From Vulcanimicrobiota bacterium (GTDB lineage Bacteria > Vulcanimicrobiota > Vulcanimicrobiia > Vulcanimicrobiales > Vulcanimicrobiaceae): a DNA stretch of 64,000 bases. The first letter of the stretch is position 1; the number at the start of each line of letters is the position of its first letter. The stretch lies in NCBI GenBank assembly GCA_013036105.1, contig JAAXCX010000006.1:1-64000 (forward strand). Reading direction: 5' to 3'. Positions 21,383-32,679 of this stretch are shown here, piece after piece. The notes under the pieces are model-generated. The model worked only from the letters and a program-made list of their open reading frames with translations. It was not told where the DNA came from and did not search any database. The position numbers and the translations under genes were made by a program.

Positions 21383-22159
21383 ATGATAATCTCGGAGGAC
21401 TTTCATGCGGAAATTCGCGCTCTCATGAGCTTCATGGGCCGTGCATTTGGCGCGCGCGACAGACGCGCCGGCAACGCGGCGCAGCTCGATAAGGTGCTGG
21501 CGGATCTGGGCGAGCCAGAAAACGACGAGCCTGTACGCCCGCCATCGATCGCGCGGGAGACGCCGCCGCCCCCCGCGCCGGCCCCGGCGCCCCCCGCGGA
21601 CCATCGCGAGCGGCTTGAAAAGCTCCTCGACGACGCTCGCCGGATCGCGCAGATGCTTGAGAACGAATCGGCAGAAGCTGCGCTTGCCGAGAATCTCAAA
21701 CTCGACGAAAAACTCGCAGCCGTAGCGAAACTTGCTGAAGCGGAGGCGGAAGCGAGAGCGCAGGCGAGCACCCTGACCAAACAGAGCGAGAGCGCCGCGA
21801 TACACACCGCTCAGATCGATACAGACGTACGCGCTGCGCAACAAACCGTGACCGCTGCCGAAGAATCGGTCAAAGACCTCGAGGCGCGCCTCGCGGAGGC
21901 TCACCACGCCGTTATTCAGGCAAAGTCTCAGCTGGACGAAAGCGAAGGGCGTGCTCGCGCCTCCGCCCTCGAGCGAGAAACGCACGCGGCGAAAGTTCAC
22001 GCAGCCGAGGCCAGCCTCACAAAGTGCCGTGAAGCGCGCGAGGCAGCCGAGGCGGAAGTTCGGGAAGCCAAAGCAATCGCACGCAGCATCATGCAAACAG
22101 CCGCTACGCTAAAACAGCTGCGTCCGATCGGTTCGAACGGCGCCGTTACCGCGCCGTAA
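21383..22159 (+). CDS. Coiled-coil protein of unknown function
   Basis: About 258 residues, with a Pro-rich linker (PPPPAPAPAPPADH) near residue 65 followed by roughly 180 residues of Ala/Glu/Lys/Arg-rich heptads that should form a long coiled coil. There is no signal peptide and no enzymatic motif. A TTG at 21347 overlapping the previous stop is an alternative start. The 3' end overlaps the convergent metalloprotease gene by 14 bp. It could be a structural or tethering protein. Confidence 0.65.
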   Translation: MIISEDFHAEIRALMSFMGRAFGARDRRAGNAAQLDKVLADLGEPENDEPVRPPSIARETPPPPAPAPAPPADHRERLEKLLDDARRIAQMLENESAEAALAENLKLDEKLAAVAKLAEAEAEARAQASTLTKQSESAAIHTAQIDTDVRAAQQTVTAAEESVKDLEARLAEAHHAVIQAKSQLDESEGRARASALERETHAAKVHAAEASLTKCREAREAAEAEVREAKAIARSIMQTAATLKQLRPIGSNGAVTAP

Positions 22160-25064
22160 CCGCTACGGTCGCCTCTGCGCTGCGCGTGCCATCTGTGACC
22201 ACAACGCGCAACCGGTGCGCACCCGGCGTAAGTTTTAACACCAGCTGCGTCGCACGCTGTTCGTCCGCGCGCCCGAGATACGAATCTCCGCCGTCGATCG
22301 AATCCAGCACCGAGGCAAGCGCCGTGCCGCGCGACGCCGACATACGCCAGCGCAGCGTTACCGGCTTATTCGCTTTGACCACCGCACCCGCAGCGGGCGA
22401 GATAATGCTCACGCTCGGCGCGCGCGGCGAGAGCCGCTTGCTGTCCAGTACTTTGCCGCCGCCAACGACCTCAACAACCGCCGCGCCCGGCACTTGCGGG
22501 ATGCGTTCCATAAAGAACACCATCTGCGGATGCGCCGGTGTGGGGTGAAAACGGCTCGGCGGGTCGTGCGGCCGCTCGAATCCCGGGCGCAGCGCAAACG
22601 CGCGTAGTTGCTTCCCGGTCGCATCCAGCACGATGATGTGCATCGGCGCAAACGGGTCGTCGCGGGTTTCATCCGTGACGCTATCCAGCGTATAAAACGG
22701 CGTAAATCGCGCATCGTACGTCACGCCGTTGCGCCCCGCGTATCCGCGAACTATCAGCACGGGCGGGTCGCTCTTGCCTTGCAGCGCTACCGCCAAATGG
22801 CGGAACGTGCATTGCTCGGTGTATTGGTGAAGATAGTCGTTCGCCGGCTGCATGATGCCCTCGCCGTCAAAGACCTCGCGCCCTTCGTCCGTGTAGCCGC
22901 CGTGAATAAACCGCAATCCTTGCGCAAAGTCGCCGTCCGCATTGTGGTAGCCTTTGCTGCATTCGCTCGTCATCCACGGCACATCCGCGGGCGCCGGCGC
23001 GTTCCGCACTTGGAACGGCAGCGTATGCGCAAGCTCGTGTGCCACAACCGTATAGTGATTGTTGTTCCGCAGAAAGATCACTTTGGTTCCAATGGTAAAA
23101 GCCGCCGCGTGGCGGCCGCCCGGCCCGTATGCCCGCTCGAAATCTTCATCGCTCATCACAATGAGTTCGCGCCCTTGATGCTCCAAGATCGCGCGCAACG
23201 AGAACCGGTTGCCCAATTTGCTCTCGATACGGTCCGACAGCTCCATGTACGGCCCCATGTGGCTGTTCACTTCGTCCGGGAATACTTCACCCGACAGATC
23301 CAACGGCGGAATCGGGTCCACAACCGAACGGAATTCCGACGTGCGCATGTCGCCGCCCGGCCGCACCGGGTACAAGTCCGGCATAAAGTGCGAAGTCTCT
23401 CTTGCAAGCTGCAGCGTCCGGTCCTCCAGCAAATCGTCCTCATACTCGCTGGGCACGCCCAAACTCAGCGGCACAAAGTGCAGCCGCATACCGCTTGTTT
23501 TCACAATCGTGCCGCGCAAGCGTGCTTCCATGCCCGCAATATCGGTCCAGTCTTTGTTGCGAAGATGCTGCGCGTGCATCACTAGGACGTACGAACCCGT
23601 GTTTTTCGAAGAAAACCCCTCTTTGGCCGGCCAGCCGTACGCTGCTTCCAGTTTAACCGGATACTCCACGAAGGGCGCGTTGGGGCGCACCGTACCGCGC
23701 AGCGGAATCTTGGTCAGCGTTTGCGTCGCCTCGCTCCACACGATGCTCGCGCCCACGCCGAACGTGAAATCCAGCCGCACCGGATCGATGTTGCCTTTTT
23801 GATCCGCGCGGCAGTTCGACTTAATCTTCATCACCACGTGGCCGTTGTTCGGGTTGGGCGGGTCGCCGCGGTCGTTCACAATTACGCGCGCGCGTCCGGG
23901 CATCCATTCGTACTGATAGACGCCGGTCAGCACCGTCGGCCGCTGCGCAACCAGCGGATACGGCGCCGTGTACTCAATCGGAAACTCCGGTTTTTGCCGC
24001 TGCAGGATGTCGGGTTTGTCAAAAACCTTGTCGTCCTGCCACCAACCTTGCGTCGGCTGCATGTACGCGTCCACCAATTCCACGCGGCACGGTACGAGAT
24101 CGTCATGGCCGTAAATTGCCGGCGTTGCCTCGACGTCCGATGGCTCCGGTCCGGGTGTTTTTTCCGCCGGCGGCCGGCTCGTGGTGCGCGGCCGGGGTGC
24201 CGTCGCAACCTCTTGCGCTATGCGTGCCAGTTCCGCTTCAAGTTTGTACGAAATAAGGGCAGGGCCCGCGTGTTCCCCGCGAATGCGCACCTGCGCAACG
24301 CCGTTTTCCACGGGAACGCGCGTGGTTTCTCCGCCGTCTTCCAGTCGCGCCGATCCGCTCACACTGAAGTTCATGTACGCGCTGTCGCCCGCCGGCAACC
24401 CATCCACGCGTACGGCAAGCGTTTGCACCGATCCGGTTTCACCCGGTGGCGGCGCTTGCGCGTGTAATTCAACGACGTCCGCGGCGATCGCATTGCTTCG
24501 TTTTCCGCCGCTTTGCAACGCAATCGAATGCCGCCCAAGTCCGATGTCGTCGTGCAGCAATGCTTTGACGTTCATGTCCGAAGCGGCAACCGTATTCGCC
24601 GCAAGCGAGTTGCCGTCAACCAGCACGCGCGCCGTTGCAGCGTCGATGCGCTGCGCGCCAAGGTTCACTAAACCGTGACTCGAGCCGCCACGTTCATATG
24701 CCGTCGCCGCGCGCACGATGGCGGGCCCGCTGCGCGGAATGTCGGCGACGGCGGCTGTTCCCGGCACAACTCCGTCGCGCGCAATCACGCACTTCGCATC
24801 GCCCAGCAACACCGCCACGGCGTCTTTTGCAACTTTGAAGACCAGCCGCCCATCTGCACCGGCCACGACGTTCATGCTCGTGCGACGCCCGCTCTTATCT
24901 TCAAACGTCACGACGGCGCGTTGGGTGAACGTCGCAACGATCGTCGAGCCCGGCCCGGCAACATCTGGCAGATACGCGGTTGCAGGCGCCGTCTGCGCGG
25001 CGCCGGCAGCGGCGCACGCAAATAAGAAAAATGGCCCCAAAGCTAAGCGCAGGTGGTTACGCAT
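22146..25064 (-). CDS. Large secreted zinc metalloprotease-like protein
   Basis: About 972 residues, with a signal peptide (LALGPFFLFACAAAGAAQ). The first 300 residues are beta-rich Ig-like segments and a Pro-rich linker; the centre contains VVAHELAHTLPF near residue 675, an HExxH zinc site, with no clear downstream third ligand that would assign a clan. The final 90 residues form another Ig-like domain (SIISPAAGAVVKANKPVTLRW is its first part). ATG 25064 is chosen because GGAGG sits about 6 nt upstream. The family is not recognised; an extracellular peptidase is likely. Confidence 0.72.
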   Translation of the reverse strand: MRNHLRLALGPFFLFACAAAGAAQTAPATAYLPDVAGPGSTIVATFTQRAVVTFEDKSGRRTSMNVVAGADGRLVFKVAKDAVAVLLGDAKCVIARDGVVPGTAAVADIPRSGPAIVRAATAYERGGSSHGLVNLGAQRIDAATARVLVDGNSLAANTVAASDMNVKALLHDDIGLGRHSIALQSGGKRSNAIAADVVELHAQAPPPGETGSVQTLAVRVDGLPAGDSAYMNFSVSGSARLEDGGETTRVPVENGVAQVRIRGEHAGPALISYKLEAELARIAQEVATAPRPRTTSRPPAEKTPGPEPSDVEATPAIYGHDDLVPCRVELVDAYMQPTQGWWQDDKVFDKPDILQRQKPEFPIEYTAPYPLVAQRPTVLTGVYQYEWMPGRARVIVNDRGDPPNPNNGHVVMKIKSNCRADQKGNIDPVRLDFTFGVGASIVWSEATQTLTKIPLRGTVRPNAPFVEYPVKLEAAYGWPAKEGFSSKNTGSYVLVMHAQHLRNKDWTDIAGMEARLRGTIVKTSGMRLHFVPLSLGVPSEYEDDLLEDRTLQLARETSHFMPDLYPVRPGGDMRTSEFRSVVDPIPPLDLSGEVFPDEVNSHMGPYMELSDRIESKLGNRFSLRAILEHQGRELIVMSDEDFERAYGPGGRHAAAFTIGTKVIFLRNNNHYTVVAHELAHTLPFQVRNAPAPADVPWMTSECSKGYHNADGDFAQGLRFIHGGYTDEGREVFDGEGIMQPANDYLHQYTEQCTFRHLAVALQGKSDPPVLIVRGYAGRNGVTYDARFTPFYTLDSVTDETRDDPFAPMHIIVLDATGKQLRAFALRPGFERPHDPPSRFHPTPAHPQMVFFMERIPQVPGAAVVEVVGGGKVLDSKRLSPRAPSVSIISPAAGAVVKANKPVTLRWRMSASRGTALASVLDSIDGGDSYLGRADEQRATQLVLKLTPGAHRLRVVVTDGTRSAEATVAVTAR

Positions 25065-25099
25065 CGGCAGCCTCCAGGAATCCAAGGGTTTACCACCGC

Positions 25100-26720: not shown

Positions 26721-27376
26721 GACTGCGTATTCGGCGGATCGATCGTTTTCAAATAGTAGAGAAAGACGCCGCCGCCGAGTACTAACAGTACGAGCGAATC
26801 GAGCAGGAATCGGATCGTCAGCTCGCCGCGAAGCAGCGCGCTGATAAACCAGAAGCCGTCGCCGAGCACCACAATCGCGGCGATAACGAGCGCGAGGTAC
26901 GTGAGCCACCGGCGGACGCCCGAGTCATACAGATCCGGGCGCGCCGCAAGTTGTCGGCGGATCAACGTGTGAACGAAGACGAAAACCGGAAAAGAAATAA
27001 CGACGACGGCGACCTGCCACGAAATCGTATTCCGCAGAGATTGCGCGTAATACGGCGCCTCTTGCGTCGCATCGGGGAACGCGCGGGCGATCAAAATGTA
27101 AAAGATTTGGCCGAGCGCGACCGTCCAAAATCCAAGCGTGATGAAATTCAGCAGATAATAAAACGCATCTCGCGCATTCTCGACCTGCCCCGATCGCGAC
27201 GGCACGGGCATCCCCAGCGTCTCGGCATAGTACGATGAAAGCGCGGCATAGACGCGCCGCTCCGGCCAGCCCCGGTCGCCAAGAAGTGACACGATAAACT
27301 CATCGTTGACGCCGTGCTGCTTAGCGGCCCGGACGAACTCCAAAAGCCCGGGATTGCCGGCAGGGCCTGCACTCAT
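26717..27376 (-). CDS. DUF5671-type integral membrane protein
   Basis: About 219 residues. A short soluble N-terminus (LLEFVRAAKQHGVNDEFIVS is an EF-like helix-turn-helix) precedes about four membrane segments, including the DUF5671 signature region YYLLNFITLGFWTVALGQIF. ATG 27376 (MSAGPAGN) is preferred over 27427, which overlaps the divergent gene. It is translationally coupled to the next gene. Function unknown. Confidence 0.75.
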   Translation of the reverse strand: MSAGPAGNPGLLEFVRAAKQHGVNDEFIVSLLGDRGWPERRVYAALSSYYAETLGMPVPSRSGQVENARDAFYYLLNFITLGFWTVALGQIFYILIARAFPDATQEAPYYAQSLRNTISWQVAVVVISFPVFVFVHTLIRRQLAARPDLYDSGVRRWLTYLALVIAAIVVLGDGFWFISALLRGELTIRFLLDSLVLLVLGGGVFLYYLKTIDPPNTQS

Positions 27377-27469
27377 GGGCCGAAGATTTCGCCGTATGCG
27401 GCCCAGCGCCCGCTTGGTCGCAAGCAAGCATGCGAAGTTACGGCCGCGGATGCCGATTACTTATATACG

Positions 27470-27898
27470 ATGTTTCATGCTATTGTGCTTGGCTTAGCCA
27501 TGCAGAGCGCTTCGATATCCATACCCGCAGAGAAGCGTATGCTCGCCGACCTGAACTCCACTCGCGCCCGCGCTGGGCTGCCGATGCTCAAACTGGACAA
27601 CCGCCTGACGGACGTCGCGACGGCCCACGGCATCGACATGGCGCAGCACAACTATTTCGCGCACGAGTCGCAGGGCGGACAATCGCCATTCGACCGTATG
27701 AAGGCCGACCGCATTTCCTTCGGCTGGGCCGGCGAGAATCTGGCCATGAGCCCCGACGAACCGACGGCCTACCAGGCGCTTCTGCAGAGCCCGGAGCATT
27801 TGGCGAACATCATGCAGCGCCACTTCTCGAAAGTGGGCATCGCCGCGGTGCAGGGTCCGGACGGCGAGATGCTGTTCGTGCAGGACTTCACCAACTAA
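27470..27898 (+). CDS. CAP-domain (SCP/PR1-like) extracellular protein
   Basis: About 142 residues forming a bacterial CAP domain: LNSTRARAGLPMLKLD, VATAHGIDMAQHNYFAHES, then FGWAGENLAM and LLQSPEHLANIM, a recognisable CAP/YkwD layout with the conserved His and Glu residues (H of AHGIDM, E of GEN, H of PEHL). The N-terminus is short and hydrophobic, so export is likely though the signal is weak. Such proteins occur in spores, cell walls and secretomes; their biochemistry is mostly undefined. Confidence 0.82.
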   Translation: MFHAIVLGLAMQSASISIPAEKRMLADLNSTRARAGLPMLKLDNRLTDVATAHGIDMAQHNYFAHESQGGQSPFDRMKADRISFGWAGENLAMSPDEPTAYQALLQSPEHLANIMQRHFSKVGIAAVQGPDGEMLFVQDFTN

Positions 27899-27917: not shown

Positions 27918-28436
27918 ATGAAACGATCGGGATCCCTCATCATCGCCGCGCTTGCTTGCTGCATGATCGCGGCGATTCCGCGTCATGCCGTGCCGCGTCA
28001 CCCAACGACCCCGCCTCCGATCGACGGCATCCGCTGCGAAGGCATGGAAGGCGCCGTCGTTCACATTCATCAGTACCTCGCGCTGTACGACGGATATCAG
28101 CGCGTGACGGTGCCCGCGCTCATCGGCATCCACAACGATTGTCTGTACTGGCTGCACACGCACACGGCCGACGGATTGATCCACGACGAAGTTCCGATCC
28201 ACAAATTTTTTAAGCTGGGCAATTTTTTCGACGTCTGGAAGCAGCCGTTGAATTGGTACCAAGCCGGCCCTTTGCACGCGCGGCCGGGCACAAAGCTCAA
28301 AATTACCGTTGACGGAAAGCCGTTCAAAGGAAACCCGCGCAACATCGAGCTCGACAACCACACCGAGATCATCATCAAAAGCGGGCCGCCTTACGTTACG
28401 CATCCACCGCATTACAACTGGGGAAACATGGGCTAG
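27918..28436 (+). CDS. Conserved secreted His-rich protein
   Basis: A 172-residue protein with a signal peptide (SLIIAALACCMIAAIPRHA). The mature part has many histidines and aromatic residues: VVHIHQYLALYDG, CLYWLHTHTADGLIHDE, FFDVWKQPLNWY and a C-terminal HPPHYNWG. The HIH and HTH pairs suggest metal binding, and similar short secreted proteins with LHTH-x-GxIH are known but unassigned. It lies 19 bp after the CAP gene, so both may be exported from one transcript. Confidence 0.75.
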   Translation: MKRSGSLIIAALACCMIAAIPRHAVPRHPTTPPPIDGIRCEGMEGAVVHIHQYLALYDGYQRVTVPALIGIHNDCLYWLHTHTADGLIHDEVPIHKFFKLGNFFDVWKQPLNWYQAGPLHARPGTKLKITVDGKPFKGNPRNIELDNHTEIIIKSGPPYVTHPPHYNWGNMG

Positions 28437-28446
28437 CCAAAAAGAA

Positions 28447-28468
28447 GAGGGCCGCTTTCGCGGCCCTC
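28447..28468. terminator. Bidirectional Rho-independent terminator
   Basis: GAGGGCCGC (28447-28455) pairs perfectly with GCGGCCCTC (28460-28468). The minus-strand side is followed by CTTCTTTTT and the plus side by TCTCTCTG. It separates the convergent secreted His-rich gene and the repeat-protein gene. Confidence 0.85.
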
Positions 28469-28494
28469 TCTCTGTCGCTACACAACGGATTGGG

Positions 28495-30780
28495 CTAGCG
28501 ACACTTCTTGTGGAGCATCGGTTTACCGGCGATCGCGGAGGTCCCGACGATGTAGCGCGGTCCGGTCGAAGCTCCGAGCACTCCGGTCTTGTACCAAACG
28601 CAGCGCCGTTTTCCAACCGGCTGAATGGCTACCGGAAGAACGCGTGTCGGCAGCGCTGCGATGCGGCGTCCGCTGGCCGGTCCGGTCGAAGCGCCGAGCA
28701 CATGCGTCGGTGCCCCTGCGGCTCCGCGCGTTCCGCTGCCCGGTGCGAACTGTCCGCCTGCAGCCGGAATCATGCCGACCGGGGCGCCCGGTCCGCGCGT
28801 TCCGCTTTGGCTCGTTGTGAAGCCGCGTCCCGGAACGACTGCTGTGCGTGACGTTCCGCCGTTAACCGGAACCGCTGCAACCGTGCCCGGAACGTGAGCT
28901 GAGCTGTTGGCGATTCCGCCGATCACTTCGCTCGGTGCAGCGCCGCTGCCGCCGCCGGACGATCCGCTACCGCACATTGCGGAGCTGGTCGATTCACTTG
29001 ACTTACAGAAACCGCGGGTGTGACCGGCCGGATTTACGCACTCGTGCGGAAGTCCGGGCGGGTTGTGACCCGACGCGTCGTTGGCCGCATCTTTGGCCAT
29101 TTGGTTAGCAAACGCGGGGTTGCTGTGGCTCTTCGAACTGGCGCCTTGCGCGCACGGTCTGGTGACGTTCGAGGCGACTTCGGTATCGCTGCCGCCCGTA
29201 CCACCGCCGCTGCCGCACATGCTTTCGCTGCTCGACGATTTGCAGAAGCCGCGCGTATGTCCGGCCGGATTCACGCACTCGTGCGGAAGTCCGGGCGGGT
29301 TGTGACCCGAGGCGTCGTTAGCGGCGTCTTTGGCCATTTGATTCGCGAACGCGGGGTTGCCGTTACGCGACGATCCATGTCCGCATTTGCCCATGCCGTT
29401 CTTGGTGACATCGACGTCGTTCTTGGCCACGTCAACGTCTGTCTTCTTGGCTTTTTTCGTCTTGGTGTCAACGTCGCTGCTGGCTACGTCAATGTCTGAA
29501 GACGCGCCCATCGAGCCCGATCCGCTGCCGCAGATGCTTTCGCTGCTGGACGACTTGCAGAAGCCGCGCGTGTGACCGGCCGGGTTCACGCACTCGTGCG
29601 GAAGTCCGGGCGGGTTGTGACCCGAGGCGTCGTTAGCGGCATCTTTGGCCATTTGATTCGCGAACGCGGGGTTGCCATTACGCGACGATCCGTGCCCGCA
29701 CTTGCCCATGCCGCCGGCTTTGACGTCTACATCGGCCACGTCACTGTCGGACTTGCGATTCTTGGCCTTGTGCCCTTTGGTATCGATGTCGCTCTTGGCT
29801 ACGTCAACGTCTGATTTCTTCGCTTTCTTCGTATCAACATCAGACTTGGCTACGTCGATATCACGATCGCATTTTTTCTTGTCGTTGTCGAGTTTCGCCA
29901 GGTCGTTGTCGAGTTTTTTGGATTTTCTGGTCGCCGGATTGTCGAGGTCGGCTTTGACGATATCGATGTCGAGCTTCACGGCATCGACGTCCTCTTTTTT
30001 CGCGCCCTTGAACTTCGGCGTGTCGATGTCGGCCTTCACCTGATCGACATCCGTCTTGGCAACGTCAGAGTCAACGTCCGTCTTGGTTCCGCGCGCGAAC
30101 TTGTCGATGCCGTGCTTCTTCACGAGGTCGAGCGCGACGACTTTTCCGCTCGTCGCCGACATGGCCGTCACTTGTAAATTCGAGCCGACTTTTACATGCA
30201 GACGGCTCGCCGTCTTGGCGTCGAGCGTGATCATCCGCGACTGTCCGCTTTGATCTTGCACCACGAACGTATCGCCCGTGCGCGCAGTCACCCGCATATT
30301 GTCCTTCTCGCCGCGATTGCACACGGCCGTGATCTGCTGGCCGTTGGTAAAGAAAATTAAATCGCCGTGGCCCTGATGGGCTTTCAGCGAGGCCAGTGCC
30401 GCGTCGGAAATATTGAAGTCATGCGTGCCGCCGTTTGAAAGTTTGACGTGGACGCCGGCCTGCGCGCCCGATCCGAACACGTCGCGGTCGCCCGCGCTTC
30501 CTTCGAATTCACTGCCCTTGCCGTCGCCCATCGTTTTGTTCGCCTTCATGCTGCGATCGAAATCGCCCGGCGAAGACCGCGGGCCGCCGACGCCGCCGGG
30601 GCCGCGCTGCGCTGCCGCCTTTGAATCGCCGCCGCTGCTGCTTTGACCCGGCGCTGCTGCGCCTTGCGAAGGGCCGCCTTTTTTGTCGTGATTGCCGCCT
30701 TTATCTGCGAACGCGATGCCTGTGGTGCACAGCAAGGCCGCGCTTAAGAAGGCCGCTGCTAATTTCTGCGGACGTTGCAT
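28495..30780 (-). CDS. Secreted repeat protein with Asp-Val-Asp heptads and Cys cassettes
   Basis: About 761 residues with a signal peptide (KLAAAFLSAALLCTTGIAFA). A Gly/Ser/Lys-rich segment leads to a roughly 120-residue beta-rich domain (GTHDFNISDAALASLKAHQG, VTARTGDTFVVQDQSGQSR). Next comes an Asp/Lys region built from units such as SDVDVAK and SDVDTKK, a roughly 7-residue period, then three near-identical cysteine cassettes (NPAFANQMAKDAANDASG, PHECVNPAGHTRGFCKSS) separated by more heptads, and a Gly/Thr-rich tail with two LGASTGP units. ATG 30780 is preceded by GGAG. No known family; a Ca-binding or self-assembling surface protein is possible. Confidence 0.78.
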   Translation of the reverse strand: MQRPQKLAAAFLSAALLCTTGIAFADKGGNHDKKGGPSQGAAAPGQSSSGGDSKAAAQRGPGGVGGPRSSPGDFDRSMKANKTMGDGKGSEFEGSAGDRDVFGSGAQAGVHVKLSNGGTHDFNISDAALASLKAHQGHGDLIFFTNGQQITAVCNRGEKDNMRVTARTGDTFVVQDQSGQSRMITLDAKTASRLHVKVGSNLQVTAMSATSGKVVALDLVKKHGIDKFARGTKTDVDSDVAKTDVDQVKADIDTPKFKGAKKEDVDAVKLDIDIVKADLDNPATRKSKKLDNDLAKLDNDKKKCDRDIDVAKSDVDTKKAKKSDVDVAKSDIDTKGHKAKNRKSDSDVADVDVKAGGMGKCGHGSSRNGNPAFANQMAKDAANDASGHNPPGLPHECVNPAGHTRGFCKSSSSESICGSGSGSMGASSDIDVASSDVDTKTKKAKKTDVDVAKNDVDVTKNGMGKCGHGSSRNGNPAFANQMAKDAANDASGHNPPGLPHECVNPAGHTRGFCKSSSSESMCGSGGGTGGSDTEVASNVTRPCAQGASSKSHSNPAFANQMAKDAANDASGHNPPGLPHECVNPAGHTRGFCKSSESTSSAMCGSGSSGGGSGAAPSEVIGGIANSSAHVPGTVAAVPVNGGTSRTAVVPGRGFTTSQSGTRGPGAPVGMIPAAGGQFAPGSGTRGAAGAPTHVLGASTGPASGRRIAALPTRVLPVAIQPVGKRRCVWYKTGVLGASTGPRYIVGTSAIAGKPMLHKKCR
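28970..29713 (-). repeat. Three tandem Cys-cassette coding repeats
   Basis: Within the heptad protein gene, three copies of a roughly 130-195-bp unit lie at about 29518-29713, 29205-29400 and 28970-29130. The first two are nearly identical at DNA level; the third is diverged on its 3' side. Each encodes the AFANQMAKDAANDASG and HECVNPAGHTRGFCKS segments with two conserved cysteines. Confidence 0.85.

Positions 30781-30904: not shown

Positions 30905-32679
<1,775 letters not shown>

Follow-up and report, generated by a model that had tools for sequence, protein, structure and literature searches.

A predicted exported, modular repeat protein with Asp/Lys heptads and cysteine cassettes encoded downstream of enolase in one Eremiobacterota genus

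The gene, its neighbours and its orthologues

The window, by which we mean the whole 64,000-nucleotide stretch analyzed, comes from an uncultured soil bacterium of Ca. Eremiobacterota. A coding sequence for a 761-residue protein occupies positions 28498..30780 of its minus strand, on which all the parts of the gene given below also lie. It starts with an ATG at 30780 and ends at a stop codon at 28495–28497, in agreement with the interval given in a preliminary description of the locus, and is backed by the open reading frame, by orthologues and by substitution ratios (omega). From the N- to the C-terminus, the protein comprises (i) a signal peptide, (ii) a duplicated DUF5666-like N-domain, (iii) a heptad region, (iv) three cysteine cassettes, (v) a Gly/Pro linker and (vi) a 72-residue C-domain. 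The enolase gene (30908..32221, minus strand) lies immediately upstream, on the same strand. An intrinsic-terminator-like hairpin (28445..28470, minus strand; 11 pairs, CTTTTT) is found 25 bases past the stop codon, in a scan that overall did not exceed shuffled sequences (5 hairpins found, 4.9 expected). Two plus-strand genes converge on the repeat-protein gene, one (27314–27898) encoding a secreted protein of the CAP family and the other (27918–28436) a small exported protein with no Pfam match; this arrangement is also present in two related genomes, G103 and G100, and G102 likewise has the small protein.

Orthologues were found in four genomes of the same genus (G103, G100, G102 and G104), with blocks that are 61–81% identical, and four of the five genes, that of the window included, are intact. 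The G102 copy (L029:6708-8573, minus strand) has one in-frame TAA, located within the heptads, and carries two CKCHKGE/CGCHKGE motifs in place of the NPAG cassettes described below. It may reflect gene decay or a faulty assembly; in that lineage, neither the cassettes nor an intact gene thus appear indispensable. The succession of enolase and repeat-protein genes on the same strand is observed in the window, G100, G102 and G103. The post-enolase slot of G101 holds an unrelated gene and, across 20 further genomes, the presence of the orthologue in this slot turned out to be a feature of the genus only. Note that the slot of G105 (L105:4674-7673, minus strand) encodes a different exported protein, of 1000 residues, which contains tandem DUF5666/OB-like repeats, about seven Cys-x7-Cys cassettes (GNGTPPNNLANTQRTAAGNNALATAGANQNAAAGCVSINAGPC) and a carboxypeptidase-regulatory-like C-domain, a modular design that we regard as analogous.

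Pairwise omega values across the orthologues range from 0.11 to 0.28 for the N-domain and from 0.08 to 0.22 for the C-domain (Ks/Ka analysis), indicating that both domains are under purifying selection. Taken together with the dN of 0 of the cassette core (see below), these values strongly support translation of the frame, and speak against the absence of translation that the preliminary description had named as a possible refutation.

Export signal, flanking domains and heptads

Inspection of the sequence shows a signal peptide at residues 1–25 (30706..30780; MQRPQKLAAAFLSAALLCTTGIAFA followed by DK), with a probable cleavage site between AFA and DK and no lipobox. This peptide, already noticed in the preliminary description, is common to all five orthologues. 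The phylum has been reported to possess BamA and LPS genes, i.e. to be diderm (PMC6664022), and a Gram-negative envelope has been seen in Vulcanimicrobium (PMC9758169). The host genome encodes an Omp85 protein and VKOR, an extracytoplasmic disulfide-forming enzyme; a DsbA of the Thioredoxin_4 type was not found in it. The protein is therefore probably exported to a diderm envelope. The earlier proposal of a surface or matrix protein holds as regards export, but the final location is not fixed by any anchor: the 761-residue protein contains no lipobox, transmembrane helix, LPXTG motif or match to a known sorting domain.

The N-domain (residues 90–228, 30097..30513) appears to consist of two copies of a beta-beta-alpha-beta-beta unit, an order that is repeated in the AlphaFold2 model (pLDDT 48–58 in parts) and that is distantly reminiscent of DUF5666/OB-like domains. 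Its match to DUF5666 (PF18914) reaches 13.5 bits (E 0.091), below the Pfam gathering cut-off of 27 bits, so that the curated cut-off does not make it a member of this family. Four of the five orthologues match DUF5666 weakly, along almost the full length of the model (best E 0.036). The N-domain also matches the L031 protein (hhalign E 3.3e-6, probability 88%; hmmsearch 7.5e-7), which itself matches DUF5666 with an E of 2.7e-4, below the cut-off. A direct hhalign comparison of the second N-subdomain with the DUF5666 domains of the short cassette proteins described below failed. A Foldseek search with the AlphaFold2 model returned nothing at E<0.001, and the OB-like entries high in its list do not count as evidence. 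The N-domain is probably a duplicated, distant DUF5666-like domain, the sequence links being weak but consistent. The beta-rich N-domain of the preliminary description thus fits the sequence and a low-confidence model but is not wholly novel. Note that the literature examined gives no function for DUF5666, and that we found no paper on the present protein family.

At the other end of the protein, a Gly/Ser/Pro-rich linker (28714..28971), variable between orthologues, leads to the C-domain (28498..28713). The latter, 86–96% identical in the genus, is the most conserved part of the protein and contains two Cys and two VLGASTGP boxes; outside the genus, its matches are at chance level only.

The heptad region (residues 230–355, 29716..30093) comprises 16 units of consensus phi-D-phi-D-phi-x-K, and a second, short heptad block (residues 429–460, 29401..29496) lies between cassettes 1 and 2. 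Asp and Lys account for 24% and 21% of the residues, respectively, over a 124-residue region. In the window protein, D–D pairs are in excess over shuffled sequences at spacing 7 (17 observed, 6.6 in shuffles, z=5.1) and at spacing 2 (16 observed, 7 in shuffles, z=4.3), and acidic pairs at spacing 7 reach z values of 5–8 when orthologues are included. The spacing of about seven residues reported earlier for Asp-Val-Asp/Lys units is thus borne out, with some interruptions by intervals of 10, 13 and 14 residues. The region has a fraction of charged residues (FCR) of 0.46–0.53 with well-mixed charges and a net charge of about zero, and its length varies from 130 to 264 residues across orthologues. 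Identity over four orthologues is 0.92, 0.79 and 0.88 at D1, D3 and K6, and 0.43, 0.26 and 0.44 at the alternating hydrophobic positions, with the reservation that D and K in one orthologue served to define the register, which biases conservation towards those positions.

Like RTX and LEA repeats, the heptads are repetitive and Asp-rich or polyampholytic; they differ in that their Asp residues are balanced by Lys in a 7-residue D-x-D unit and in that neither the RTX nonapeptide nor the LEA profile of Pfam matches the 761-residue protein at E up to 1, as the preliminary description had anticipated. YadA-type heads also display an alternating hydrophobic pattern with a 7-residue sub-period; in the heptads, which lack a Pfam match, charged residues replace the small residues and glycines. 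A separate search with the heptads, as suggested earlier, gave PDB matches only at E of at least 0.5. Their hydrophobic moment is highest at 150–160 degrees, unlike that of an amphipathic helix (100 degrees), and their hydrophobic positions are the least conserved, which is not what is expected of a canonical coiled coil; AlphaFold2 nevertheless shows a weak preference for helices there. They could lack a fixed structure or form helices or beta strands. Two AlphaFold2 runs on the protein gave mean pLDDT values of 32 and 40, too poor to uphold the new repeat fold proposed earlier or any other claim on the fold.

The cysteine cassettes and a wider group of exported proteins

Each cassette spans four cysteines: Cys 361, 397, 408 and 417 in cassette 1 (residues 361–417, 29530..29700), Cys 466, 502, 513 and 522 in cassette 2 (residues 466–522, 29215..29385) and Cys 543, 581, 592 and 603 in cassette 3 (residues 543–603, 28972..29154), with cores beginning at residues 370, 475 and 554, respectively. 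The preliminary description had spoken of three nearly identical cassettes with two cysteines each; the three copies stand, their 41-residue core (NPAFANQMAKDAANDASGHNPPGLPHECVNPAGHTRGFCKS) being identical at the protein level, but the extended cassette has four cysteines. Cassettes 1 and 2 lie within a 315-nt tandem duplication, the unit of which includes the short heptad block. The window copies of the core differ pairwise at 5, 12 and 15 of 123 bases, all in third codon positions (dN 0, dS 0.2–0.9), and copies in orthologues show 0–2 amino acid differences for up to 23 base differences, almost all in third codon positions. That the core is frozen despite synonymous change indicates translation under strong purifying selection. 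The number of cassettes in the five orthologues is 3, 2, 1, 1 and 0, suggesting that copy number is free to change while the core sequence is constrained.

A 17-residue profile (A3), built from ten rows that include the window copy, detects three copies in the window protein (49.3 bits each, E 1.8e-12) and a second motif protein in the host genome (G000:C10, E 5.8e-10). This separate search, also suggested earlier, extended the core motif H-x-C-[VIT]-N-P-A-G-x-x-[RK]-G-x-C to exported proteins of 11 genera, all in one family; the 50 genomes examined elsewhere in the phylum gave no convincing match (best E 0.005), and no cassette protein was found in viral contigs and plasmids. In a narrower form, the recurring motif reads H-x-C-[VIT]-NPAG-x-x-RG-[WF]-C. 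Over 18 distinct versions of the motif, C3, N5, P6, A7, G8, G12 and C14 are invariant, R11 differs in a single version, and H1 and H9 are frequently replaced; the search pattern itself demanded both Cys and both Gly, which are likewise invariant in the ten profile-derived rows, where they were not required.

These relatives are short cassette proteins (L032-L039, L085-L097) of about 160–250 residues, which have the NPAG motif and a signal peptide in common with the window protein. Most of them also carry a DUF5666-like domain, above the curated cut-off in one case; L097 has no Pfam match. They differ from it by their single cassette core, which precedes the DUF5666 domain, and by the absence of heptads. 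Known DUF5666 proteins, to which the N-domain is weakly similar, have no described D/K heptads or NPAG cassettes. The NPAG core thus seems to be the hallmark of an as yet unnamed set of exported proteins distributed over a single bacterial family. Genes for topoisomerase IB, DUF488, an aspartyl protease and a TPR protein lie next to the short cassette genes and offer no clue to function. Six short proteins (L035, L037, L038, L090, L091 and L095) have mature N-termini that, after the likely signal cleavage, start with Asp-Gly-His and are His-rich; such starts presumably resemble the amino-terminal Cu/Ni-binding motif.

Proposed role and competing explanations

Searching Pfam, NCBIfam and PDB with the full-length protein returned nothing significant and, in line with the preliminary description, no known family covers the repeats. 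Exported proteins that combine repeats with small beta domains have precedents; the D/K heptad, the four-Cys NPAG cassette and the C-domain, as judged from the libraries searched, match no family. The modular architecture, the constraint and the turnover of repeat number are direct observations. The reading that we favour, with a probability of roughly 0.5, is that of a disulfide-stapled, Sec-exported modular spacer protein of the envelope or surface of one Eremiobacterota genus, whose function is deduced indirectly. After export, the two DUF5666-like beta domains and the near-invariant C-domain would position the protein; the heptads would act as a spacer, highly charged but net-neutral, of a length that drifts from one species to another; and each cassette would be a compact knob stapled by disulfides, with an invariant Cys-x10-Cys pair and an outer Cys pair, serving as a repeated binding or cross-linking unit, so that the copy number of heptads and cassettes would set length and valency.

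The nature of the cassettes is where this reading meets its main competitor, in which they would hold zinc or copper through H-x-C-x5-H-x4-C, as a degenerate zinc knuckle, with the DxD ladder adding cation sites. The genus motif (HECVNPAGHTRGFC) indeed has H1, C3, H9 and C14, and shares the G-H-x4-C ending and the 14-residue span of CCHC knuckles, and several relatives have His-rich mature N-termini. However, CCHC knuckles are defined by C-x2-C-x4-H-x4-C with conserved ligands, whereas the cassette, in an exported protein, has His as its first ligand and its second at position 3 instead of 4, a shift of one residue from the knuckle; many relatives have K, Q, Y, N or R in place of H1 and H9 but retain both Cys, the heptad Asp residues are balanced by Lys, and the Pfam zinc-finger match is insignificant (E 0.15). 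Since C3 and C14 are invariant while H1 and H9 vary, disulfides are favoured over metal, which we consider unlikely; the invariant Cys pair, the exported location and the VKOR gene of the host point the same way, suggesting that the cassette cysteines form disulfides, although the lack of a match to a Thioredoxin_4-type DsbA in the host genome speaks against it.

Other explanations bear on the heptads. An exported desiccation or osmotic protectant, in which they would be a disordered hydrophilic periplasmic chain acting in a LEA-like manner while not being LEA, would suit the FCR of about 0.5, the near-zero net charge, the well-mixed charges and the disorder-like AlphaFold2 output, as well as the frequent abundance of the phylum in oligotrophic habitats reported in PMC9758169; we hold it for quite unlikely, as it has no LEA family match and leaves the frozen cassettes and C-domain unexplained. 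A rigid helical stalk or coiled coil, in which the heptads would build an extended charged helix like those of periplasmic adaptors, would account for the enrichment of D to K at +3 and K to D at +4, the AlphaFold2 helices at residues 282–322 (local pLDDT about 62–64) and weak PDB matches to adhesin and MacA helices (E 0.5–0.95), but the position of the hydrophobic-moment peak, the poor conservation of the hydrophobic positions and the low prediction confidence make it distinctly improbable. Finally, the gene could be a lineage-specific filler of the post-enolase slot, of little function and kept by repeat turnover, as the absence of the family outside the genus, the stop codon in G102 and the different occupants of the slot in G101 and G105 might suggest; the constraint (omega 0.08–0.28, cassette dN 0) already largely refutes this view, which is very improbable.

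Beyond the disulfide-stapled spacer, it is possible, although we put it forward tentatively, that the D-x-D/K heptad represents a repeat class in which charge takes the place of a hydrophobic core, and that the NPAG cassette is a new kind of disulfide mini-domain, which is duplicated and lost as a unit and marks a system of surface proteins peculiar to a single Eremiobacterota family. A previously undescribed family of predicted exported proteins and a sequence-frozen cysteine cassette are now defined in a phylum of which hardly any member has been cultured and whose surface biology is little explored. Cassettes that are frozen while their number drifts freely make a clear, testable module, and the heptad, which keeps its charges and varies its hydrophobic residues, offers a good opportunity to ask whether selection can act on the precise sequence of a polyampholyte repeat.

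Elsewhere in the window, a 979-residue open reading frame (22146–25085, minus strand) carries a bacterial Ig domain (Big_7) and also matches eCIS_core below threshold.
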